The notes beneath the pieces were generated by a model that searched no databases, was not told where the DNA came from, and worked only from the letters and a program-made list of their open reading frames with translations. Source: Candidatus Altimarinota bacterium (lineage in GTDB: Bacteria > Patescibacteriota > Gracilibacteria > UBA1369 > UM-FILTER-53-11). Taken from it: a stretch of 61,131 nucleotides of DNA. The stretch covers positions 14,322-75,452 of the forward strand of contig JAGOUV010000007.1 of assembly GCA_018061065.1 (NCBI GenBank), in the 5' to 3' direction. Positions 45,079 to 48,026 of the stretch are shown here, in pieces; position 1 is the stretch's first letter, and each line of letters opens with the position of its first letter. Made by a program: the position numbers and the translations under genes.

Positions 45079-46095
45079 ATGCGAATTTATATAGATAAAA
45101 TTAGTTCGGTCACAAAAAATGTTCGACTGAGTAGAAGCGTGGAGACCTCTGAACACATTTCTTGTACACCAGGATCTATTGTTGTAGCGCGGGTTTTGAA
45201 TAATAAAAAAATTTATAACAGTTTAGAGATCGCATCGGGACGCATGAGCATTCTTCAAAAAGGAGATATTATTGTGGTGGCCTTGGGCGATAGAAAAGCC
45301 TTAAAAGGGTTCGTAGGTGAAACGCCAAAAAAGTTGAGCGTGGGTGATACGATTCACCTTCTCAATATTGGTGGTGTTGCAGGAATATGTACAAGTGCGA
45401 GTTATCCGGAGGTAGGTGCTCCGCTTAAACTAAAGGTACTTGGTGCAGTCGTACGAGACGGAAAACCAGCAAACATTGCGAGCTATCGACTCTTTGAACC
45501 AACACCAAAACTCAAGAGCCGCATACCTCTCATTATCGTAAGTGGCACCTGTATGAATGTGGGAAAAACCTCAACTGCATGCGCAATTATCAAACATGCA
45601 ACGCTGAATGGAAAACGCATCGCTGCGGCAAAACTAGCAGGAATTGCTTCACTAAAAGATACGGAAAATATGCGCGATTACGGTGCCATTGAAGTTGTGT
45701 CTTTTGTCGATGCGGGATTTACCTCTACCATCGCATCGGAAAAAATTGTGGACTCTATTGCAAAAGGAGCCATTGAATTTTTGTCTCAAAAAAAACCTGA
45801 TTATATTGTCATCGAATTTGGAGACGGTGTGTTTGGCGAATATGGCGTACAGGCAATGTTAAAAGATCCGTACATCGCTGAGAATATTAAACGTCATATC
45901 GGCTGCGCTCATGACCCAATGGGTGCCACCAAATTACAAGAGGTGTGTAAGCGGCTCAAGGTGCCACTCAATATGATCTCGGGGCCGGTCAGCGATAATT
46001 CAGTAGGATGCGATTTTATACGGAAGCATCTAAAAGTGGCCGCCTATAATGCCATTAGACAACCGGAAGAACTTTATAATAATCTTTTCCTGTGA
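45079..46095 (+). CDS. P-loop NTPase of DUF1611-like type, unknown function
   Basis: 338 residues. The N-terminal ~145 are strand-rich, perhaps two small barrels. A Walker A SGTCMNVGKTSTA at 155-167 opens a nucleotide-binding domain of the SIMIBI/MobB-like kind, with FVDAGFTSTIAS and a Walker-B-like YIVIEFGDGVFGEYG. This layout resembles DUF1611/dethiobiotin-synthetase-like proteins, but I cannot name a substrate. It overlaps the PriA-like gene by 4 nt (ATGA), so the two are translationally coupled. This is interesting because the PriA-like partner has lost its own P-loop. Confidence 0.7.
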   Translation: MRIYIDKISSVTKNVRLSRSVETSEHISCTPGSIVVARVLNNKKIYNSLEIASGRMSILQKGDIIVVALGDRKALKGFVGETPKKLSVGDTIHLLNIGGVAGICTSASYPEVGAPLKLKVLGAVVRDGKPANIASYRLFEPTPKLKSRIPLIIVSGTCMNVGKTSTACAIIKHATLNGKRIAAAKLAGIASLKDTENMRDYGAIEVVSFVDAGFTSTIASEKIVDSIAKGAIEFLSQKKPDYIVIEFGDGVFGEYGVQAMLKDPYIAENIKRHIGCAHDPMGATKLQEVCKRLKVPLNMISGPVSDNSVGCDFIRKHLKVAAYNAIRQPEELYNNLFL

Positions 46096-47747
46096 AGTAT
46101 GTCTTTGCCTCTATAGCTCTCCATCGCCGCGTTCCACCCCAGTTTGCGCAGGTGTCTTATGAGATACCCAAGGGAATGGAGCTTACGATTGGCCAACTAG
46201 TGGAGGTGCCTTTTCGCAAACAACTTCTCCCGGGAATAGTGGTTAATATGACCACTGCAGCACCTAAATATAAAACTAGGCCAATAACTGCTGCACAGGC
46301 TTTTTGTATGCCCGCAAACAGCATGAGACTGGCACAATGGATGGCGCGCCAGTACGACAGCACTCTGCGCAATGCATTGGATACGATTATGCCTGAGCAG
46401 TTGTGGGATATTGAGGGAAAAAGAAAACGCCGTAGTCAGCCGGAGGTTGAGACGAAAAAAGAGAAAATAGCGACCACTACGGAATATGAACAGCTGGCAC
46501 AAAAATGTTTTGAAACAAGCAAAAAAGAAATCATTATCTTAGAAAAAAAACGTCTGGATCGGAAGATGTTTTATACGGCGCTCGTAGATAATCTTACATC
46601 TGATGAGCAGGCACTTTTTCTAGTTCCCGAAACTGACTTTATAGAGCTGTTAGACGTGCCATTTACCCGCTATCACGGAGAGTTAAGTGATATGCAAAAA
46701 GCACATGTCTGGCGCGCAGTGGCAGCGGGTATGGTGCCCGTGGTGATAGGGACGCGAAGCAGCTGCCTACTCCCCTTTCCCAAACTAAAATATGTAGTGG
46801 TGGATTTTGAGCATAGCGAACACTATAAAGAACAACGTAACCCCAGCTATGACGCTCGCGAGGTGGTAGAGAAACTAGGTGCAACAATTATATCGATAAG
46901 CCCGGCACCACGTATGAGCACATGGCATACAAAAATTGCGAGCCGCAAGGCCGAGGTGATTTCATGGGAAGATACAGTACCAAAAAATCGCATAGAGATA
47001 ATTGATATGGCAGATGAACGCCGAAAAGGCGTCACGGGGGCCCTCAGCGAGATTGCATTGGAATCAATTGCCCGCTGTTTGGCTCATAAAGAGCAAGTTA
47101 TGGTCTTGGTACCTCGCCGTGGTTATGCAGGAGCGCTTTGGTGCAACACCTGTAATAACGTAGAACACTGTCCAGAATGTAAGTCGCTCCTTACTCCACA
47201 CAAAAATAACCGTCTTCGTTGTCATCGCTGTGGATATGAGCGCGACATGTTGCTTCTATGTACAAATTGTAGCAATGTAACGCTAAAAAACATCGGAATA
47301 GGCACTGAAAAAATAGAATTATCATTGAATAAAACTTTTGCTCTATCTAGTATTTTACGAGTTGATAAAGATACTTATATAAAACAAAAAATGACAATTA
47401 ATGAGTTACAGCAAAAAATAGAAAAAGCTGATCTAATTATTGGAACACAGATGTTATTGAAGCCTTTCGCACTTCCGCGTTTGACATTAATCATTTTTGC
47501 ATCCTCCGATATGCTTTTTACTTCTTCTCATTTCCAGGCAGAGGAAGAGTCACTACAAATAATGCAACAATTAATAACTGCCGCAACTAACCCCTTGGTG
47601 ATAATACAAACCCTACTCCCCACTCATCCCGTCTATGCGTCGATACAGGAGCATAAATTAAGCGACTACTACAAAAAAGAGCTCTCGATGCGCAAAATCC
47701 TCTCACTACCTCCCTATCCCAGCGCGCTGAACGGGAGGAAATTTTGA
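46092..47747 (+). CDS. priA: degenerate PriA (primosomal protein N') lacking Walker A and the C-terminal domain
   Basis: PriA recognises stalled replication forks and reloads the replisome. This 551-residue protein keeps the N-terminal 3'-DNA-binding domain (about 1-100), the RYHGELS block, and the eight-cysteine zinc module (CNTCNNVEHCPECKSLL and CHRCGY plus CTNC, about 351-393). It also keeps DLIIGTQMLLK and the PPYP motif at its end. The helicase core is eroded: where GxTGSGKT should be (about 146-158) it reads ILEKKRLDRKM, and the DEEH box is DFEH (238-241, 46803-46814). The protein stops right after PPYPSA, lacking the ~80-100-residue C-terminal domain. It is probably an ATPase-dead structural primosome factor. 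Confidence 0.85.
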   Translation: MKYVFASIALHRRVPPQFAQVSYEIPKGMELTIGQLVEVPFRKQLLPGIVVNMTTAAPKYKTRPITAAQAFCMPANSMRLAQWMARQYDSTLRNALDTIMPEQLWDIEGKRKRRSQPEVETKKEKIATTTEYEQLAQKCFETSKKEIIILEKKRLDRKMFYTALVDNLTSDEQALFLVPETDFIELLDVPFTRYHGELSDMQKAHVWRAVAAGMVPVVIGTRSSCLLPFPKLKYVVVDFEHSEHYKEQRNPSYDAREVVEKLGATIISISPAPRMSTWHTKIASRKAEVISWEDTVPKNRIEIIDMADERRKGVTGALSEIALESIARCLAHKEQVMVLVPRRGYAGALWCNTCNNVEHCPECKSLLTPHKNNRLRCHRCGYERDMLLLCTNCSNVTLKNIGIGTEKIELSLNKTFALSSILRVDKDTYIKQKMTINELQQKIEKADLIIGTQMLLKPFALPRLTLIIFASSDMLFTSSHFQAEEESLQIMQQLITAATNPLVIIQTLLPTHPVYASIQEHKLSDYYKKELSMRKILSLPPYPSALNGRKF

Positions 47748-48026
47748 TTCACACAGCTCACGCTTCACACCTGCTTCTGCAGGACTCATTGGTTTAGGAT
47801 GAGCTGGCTGGAAACACTCAAACCACTCACGAAGATCATCGGGTTCCGTACGGCCTTGATCTCGTTGTTGGGATACATCACTAACAGGTGCACTTATATC
47901 CTCAGTACAGCCACGAATTCCACAACCAATAGTTAAACTCAAAGATAGTATTGCACCTGCTACAGAGGGGCTTATGTTGAGCGTAGGGGCTCTTTTCAAG
48001 GATGGTAGTCGATCCGGACTTCGCAT
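47706..48026 (-). CDS. small putative lipoprotein, unknown function
   Basis: 106 residues with a basic start and a hydrophobic stretch ending at LTIGC, a plausible lipobox (Cys35), then a hydrophilic tail with cysteine residues. A minus-strand TATAAT lies 13 nt before the start. Its 3' end overlaps the PriA-like gene by 42 nt. The unusual Arg/Pro content leaves room for a chance frame. Confidence 0.4.
   Translation of the reverse strand: MRSPDRLPSLKRAPTLNISPSVAGAILSLSLTIGCGIRGCTEDISAPVSDVSQQRDQGRTEPDDLREWFECFQPAHPKPMSPAEAGVKRELCESKFPPVQRAGIGR

Follow-up and report, generated by a model that had tools for sequence, protein, structure and literature searches.

A PriA homologue with degenerate helicase motifs and no C-terminal domain in a family of Candidatus Altimarinota

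The window, a stretch of 61,131 nucleotides from a genome of Candidatus Altimarinota, encodes a PriA-family protein that lacks the C-terminal domain (CTD) of PriA and appears to have lost its ATP-driven motor. We consider it probable that this protein is an ATPase-dead, minimal PriA maintained by selection as a structural factor, that is, as a scaffold that would bind forks and reload DnaB. The reading is drawn from the sequence: the ATP motifs and the CTD are lost across the family, the DNA-binding and zinc parts are conserved, there is a single PriA, RecG is present, and so is DnaB in five of the six family genomes.

The PriA homologue and its helicase motifs

The features of the window are the following:

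45079..46095, + strand: P-loop gene encoding 338 aa with a DUF1611/BioD-like fold, taken to lie outside PriA function
45541..45573, + strand: Walker A (SGTCMNVGKTS) of the P-loop gene, intact and conserved in the aligned homologues
46092..46095, + strand: stop/start overlap of the P-loop gene and priA, GTGA, read in the sequence
46092..47747, + strand: coding sequence of the PriA-family pseudohelicase, 551 aa, GTG start, uninterrupted frame
46092..46406, + strand: 3'-DNA-binding domain (3'BD), residues 1-105, with the PF17764 PriA_3primeBD match at residues 21-101
46527..46568, + strand: erased motif I/Walker A, residues 146-159, IILEKKRLDRKMFY where intact relatives have LIHGVTGSGKTEVY
46803..46814, + strand: motif II, residues 238-241, DFEH for DEEH
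46899..46913, + strand: motif III, SPAPR for GSATP
47142..47270, + strand: cysteine-rich region with eight zinc-ligand cysteines, C351, 354, 360, 363, 377, 380, 390 and 393
47559..47609, + strand: erased motif VI region, IMQQLITAATNPLVIIQ; the intact form is QVxGRxGR
47706..47747, + strand: C-terminus directly after LPPY, chain end LPPYPSALNGRKF, CTD missing

The protein scored 271.8 bits with the PriA equivalog model TIGR00595, above the cut-off of 230.35, and its N-terminal domain matched PF17764 with 57.8 bits (E = 9.7e-16; cut-off 22.7). The match of the cysteine-rich region to PF18319 fell just under the Pfam cut-off (E = 2e-4). All eight zinc-ligand cysteines are present, as is the DNA-binding domain, in agreement with an earlier note on this DNA. 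The best solved relatives were the PriA chains 4nl4, 6dgd, 6dcr and 8fak; the winged-helix insert is missing from the window protein. The earlier note had allowed for an intact second PriA elsewhere in the genome. A search of the assembly, which is 98.5% complete, found none, and 46092-47747 was the sole PriA match. Between priA and trpS there is a small ORF on the minus strand (47706-48026); its N-terminus is lipoprotein-like, and it shares 42 bp with the 3' end of priA.

The motif alignment showed that all four SF2 helicase motifs (I, II, III and VI) are degenerate. In motif I, the first Gly of the Walker A is replaced by E151 and its catalytic Lys by R157. The absence of the Walker A, the change to DFEH and the absence of the CTD had all been noticed earlier from the letters alone, and our readings bear them out. 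A search with PF18074 for the CTD as a separate gene gave zero matches in all genomes of the family; the sensitivity of this search is limited, because the diverged CTD of another genome of the order (G018) escapes the same model. In the predicted structure the strand-loop-helix that surrounds the former P-loop is preserved, and the top Foldseek matches were PriA structures. This model was built from only three input sequences (pLDDT 70, pTM 0.50), its overall Foldseek TM was about 0.45 with poor placement of the lobes, and only its local features were used. From these motif losses we infer that the window PriA has no ATPase activity. As the only PriA in the genome seems to have no usable ATP site, any PriA-dependent restart would have to run without the PriA ATPase, a suggestion already made in the earlier note.

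The same note named a frameshift or assembly error that conceals an intact motif as a finding that would refute its reading. We found nothing in favour of such an artefact and give it a negligible chance, given that the frame in the window is unbroken and the same loss occurs in five other, independent assemblies of the family and in tens of other families.

Occurrence of the motor-less form in the family, the order and the phylum

The window genome (G000) belongs to a GTDB family here called f1, in which we analyzed five other genomes from five other genera. By the named relatives of the gene next to priA, the lineage falls within Candidatus Peregrinibacteria/Peribacteria of the Patescibacteria. 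A PriA of about 550 aa with the same losses was found in all five, one of them (G003) fragmentary, and the window protein was 29-38% identical (about 35%) to these orthologues. In G001, G002, G004 and G005 the priA ORF is intact, and the end of the protein lies at most a few residues from a shared PPY/PPF/APF site. In the fifth, G003 (L016:1187-2457), priA is cut by a contig break. A frame change in its linker separates an ORF for the DNA-binding domain from a second, helicase-like ORF that has an ATG of its own; this split is either real or a sequencing error. A contig scan with the PriA protein as query returned no relatives. An alignment of the P-loop gene was used as search query in place of the PriA alignment, whose five rows were too divergent for this purpose.

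The eight zinc-ligand cysteines were invariant in all f1 members that cover the region. Among the residues that at least 90% of the 56 intact relatives share, 41 (the 8 cysteines and 33 others) were kept in all five full-length f1 proteins (5/5). New invariants have also appeared: G151E and K157R occur in the dead Walker A loop of 5/5 f1 members, and Q247E and G458P are likewise fixed. The identity per structured domain was 31-43% in f1 versus 46-76% in intact families, and for HD1 it was 0.34 versus 0.58-0.68. The divergence of the f1 proteins is thus above that of intact families and the constraint is therefore relaxed, though still present. These data support a lineage-wide form of PriA, apparently under selection, that would lack a usable ATP site.

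The faster divergence could also be a sign of decay towards loss. A decaying relic, with PriA dispensable in reduced genomes and the f1 form on its way out, is an unlikely explanation. It fits the accelerated divergence, the helicase motifs already lost, the frame change in the linker of G003, and the many relatives in the phylum without detectable PriA, where PriA may be dispensable. However, neutral decay over the divergence of f1 would bring stop codons and random loss of cysteines, and what we found in five genera were open frames of 550 aa with a common end point, eight invariant cysteines, and the new invariants E151, R157, E247 and P458, all of which counts against a relic. These family-specific invariants, and the joint loss of motor and CTD, are also compatible with a PriA body that has taken a new role outside restart, e.g., as an architectural or zinc-dependent adaptor of the replisome or of repair. 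We think this improbable, since the PriA-specific 3'BD and the cysteine-rich region are retained, which argues for the ancestral recognition of DNA, and since the conserved neighbourhood (trpS downstream) gives no pointer to another role. Selective maintenance of a structural PriA is the reading that we retain for f1.

Across the order, we read the motif states from 74 aligned PriA ORFs. Three groups have lost Walker A, motif II and motif VI: f1, family f12 (G016 and G027) and genus g19 of family f14 (G018, G029, G036 and G057). The CTD is retained in f12 and g19 wherever the sequence covers the end of the gene, and only f1 has lost it as well. All remaining PriAs of the order with the motif regions covered were intact, including those of genus g38 of f14; their motifs read GxTGSGKT (or a near variant), DEEH and QVxGRxGR, and their CTD is about 120 aa long.

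We also considered a single origin of the three groups, which is disfavoured. The RpoB tree recovered f14 as one group (85/87), so that three changes are required on it, and GTDB likewise places g19 (pseudohelicases) together with g38 (intact). Forcing the three groups into one clade on RpoB gave a p-AU of 0.066, just short of rejection. In the PriA tree the three groups lie on one side of a branch, all of them on long branches, and this grouping may be the product of long-branch attraction.

The search of 286 genomes of the phylum with TIGR00595 gave a bimodal distribution of scores. There were 86 matches with at least 430 bits; nearly all of them begin at profile position 1-2, the others being truncated at contig ends. 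G113 added a partial intact match. The second class scored at most 335 bits and begins after motif I. The 39 PriAs that we read from this lower class, as well as those of G000, G001 and G018, all lack the Walker A. In nearly all of them the cysteines are retained, as is a CTD 105-139 aa long, and 24 of the 39 have Arg at the position of the Walker A Lys. A profile built from these pseudohelicases recovered further diverged copies, which we read in 18 genomes: the Walker A was missing from the 16 that cover the region (16/16), two of which contain a stray GxxxxGKS string. The tally for the phylum sample is therefore at least 58 PriAs without Walker A versus about 87 intact ones; the other genomes gave only weak matches, as RecG or Mfd would give, or matches that were left unread. 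The loss, which the earlier note had wished to see traced beyond one genome, thus extends to all f1 genomes and to many other families, and PriAs without Walker A (loci L194-L232 and L236-L253) are widespread in Patescibacteria. In six of these loci (L232, L240, L242, L245, L246 and L248) the zinc cysteines are lost (no CxxC) and the C-terminal region is kept, the reverse of f1.

Our searches of open-access literature turned up no previous account of PriA pseudohelicases in Patescibacteria. What is new relative to the known pseudohelicases is that the CTD is missing and that the loss recurs across Patescibacteria. A broader view, to which we give about an even chance, is that the PriA motor was lost repeatedly in Patescibacteria with the DNA-reading and zinc parts kept, that restart in a large part of the phylum uses an ATPase-free loader or no loader at all, and that f1 represents a minimal core without the CTD.

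The upstream P-loop gene

The gene upstream of priA was described in the earlier note as a DUF1611-like gene with an intact Walker A, coupled to priA by ATGA, whose product might supply the missing NTPase activity. The overlap and the Walker A are indeed present, but the overlap reads GTGA. The DUF1611 assignment is weak by Pfam (PF07755, 14.1 bits with a cut-off of 25, E = 0.03) and is favoured by the predicted fold: the model (pLDDT 91) matched 2g0t (Z 17.9), 2obn (Z 16.7) and DgcN (7xrj, Z 16.2), and dethiobiotin synthetases and CTP synthases scored about equally.

The protein is strongly conserved, with 52-60% identity to its homologues in the order. The gene lies next to priA in one RpoB subclade alone, made up of G000, G001 and G005; the overlap is GTGA in G000, longer in G001 (L115) and ATGA in G005 (L122). 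It is located away from priA in G004 and in the g19 genomes other than G018, it is absent from G002, G003 and G018, all three with a pseudohelicase PriA, and it is also present in genomes with an intact PriA. In the phylum sample it occurred in 4 of the 286 genomes and in 2 of the 58 with a sequence-checked pseudohelicase. Co-occurrence with such PriAs within the order was 8/12 versus 5/42 (p = 0.0004, uncorrected for ancestry); across the phylum p was 0.56. Distant homologues lie in arginine operons, in Balneolales (L124, 4480-5559) in the order argG-[P-loop homologue]-argC-argD-argF'-argB, and in Blastocatellia of the Acidobacteria (L133, 4462-5508) in the order argG-argH-[P-loop homologue]-argC-argF'-argB.

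That this NTPase supplies the missing ATPase in trans is very improbable. The three overlapping gene pairs and the co-occurrence within the order speak for a partner; its absence from three genomes with a pseudohelicase, its separate location in G004, its presence in genomes with an intact PriA and its rarity in the phylum speak against one. The arginine-operon homologues and the fold, which resembles DUF1611, DgcN and dethiobiotin synthetase (BioD) enzymes rather than a translocase, make the protein an unlikely substitute for the motor of PriA. It is most likely an unrelated enzyme of amino-acid or small-molecule metabolism; the modelled fold suggests an unrecognised enzyme of an amino-acid pathway, perhaps with N-acyl chemistry. 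The overlap most plausibly reflects transcription or translation that the two genes share in a single subclade.

A putative ATPase-free scaffold and its closest known systems

The preferred explanation, an ATPase-dead PriA that acts as a scaffold, has experimental parallels. In Escherichia coli, the K230R change abolishes the ATPase of PriA, and ATPase-dead alleles assemble primosomes and support viability (PMC4504706); K230A PriA was used in DnaB-reloading assays (PMC10175261). The PriA of Deinococcus, with Arg for the Lys, does not hydrolyse ATP or unwind DNA, and it binds forks and DnaB (PMC4504706).

By analogy with these proteins, the window PriA would bind forks and load DnaB with a minimal architecture of 3'BD, degenerate helicase lobes and zinc-binding cysteine-rich region. 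Abandoned forks would be bound through the 3'BD and the surface of the helicase lobes, and the cysteine-rich platform would recruit DnaB or a DnaB loader, with the lagging strand left wound. Any single-stranded landing site that is required could come from fork processing by another motor, e.g., RecG, which was above its curated cut-off in all 11 genomes with pseudohelicase PriAs that were tested. The CTD of E. coli PriA helps to frame the ssDNA pore and contacts the leading strand (PMC10175261); its loss should alter the PriA-fork complex and may weaken fork binding. DnaB was found in five of the six f1 genomes (G001-G005). The window genome gave no full DnaB_C match, only a weak one in an ORF of 437 aa (C18:174872-175063) that is probably RadA, and the missing DnaB is possibly an assembly gap.

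If this explanation is true, a very large group of bacteria has been able to dispense, in evolution, with the ATP-driven unwinding by PriA that most studied bacteria conserve. Natural minimal PriAs without motor, CTD and winged helix would also be a means to test which parts are needed for DnaB reloading.

The closest known system is the PriA pseudohelicase of Deinococcus-Thermus (D. radiodurans), in which motifs I and II are likewise degenerate and Arg occupies the position of the catalytic Lys (PMC4504706). The window protein may also share its proposed role of binding DnaB and DNA without unwinding. In contrast to the Deinococcus protein, the window PriA lacks motif VI and the whole CTD as well and has only 551 aa; it comes from a different phylum, and its origin is probably separate.

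Actinobacterial PriA is also reported to lack recognisable helicase motifs. The window PriA matched the NCBIfam models of this PRK14873 type weakly, whereas it scored far better with the general PriA models. The E. coli K230R and K230A proteins resemble it as ATPase-dead PriAs, the E. coli alleles still supporting primosome assembly, but they are engineered point mutants with the other domains intact. Finally, the intact PriAs of the order (e.g., G008, G014 and G023) have the orthologous 3'BD and cysteine-rich region and, judged by length, mostly lack the winged-helix insert too; unlike the window PriA, they keep the Walker A, DEEH and QVxGRxGR, and their CTD (about 120 aa) is still present.
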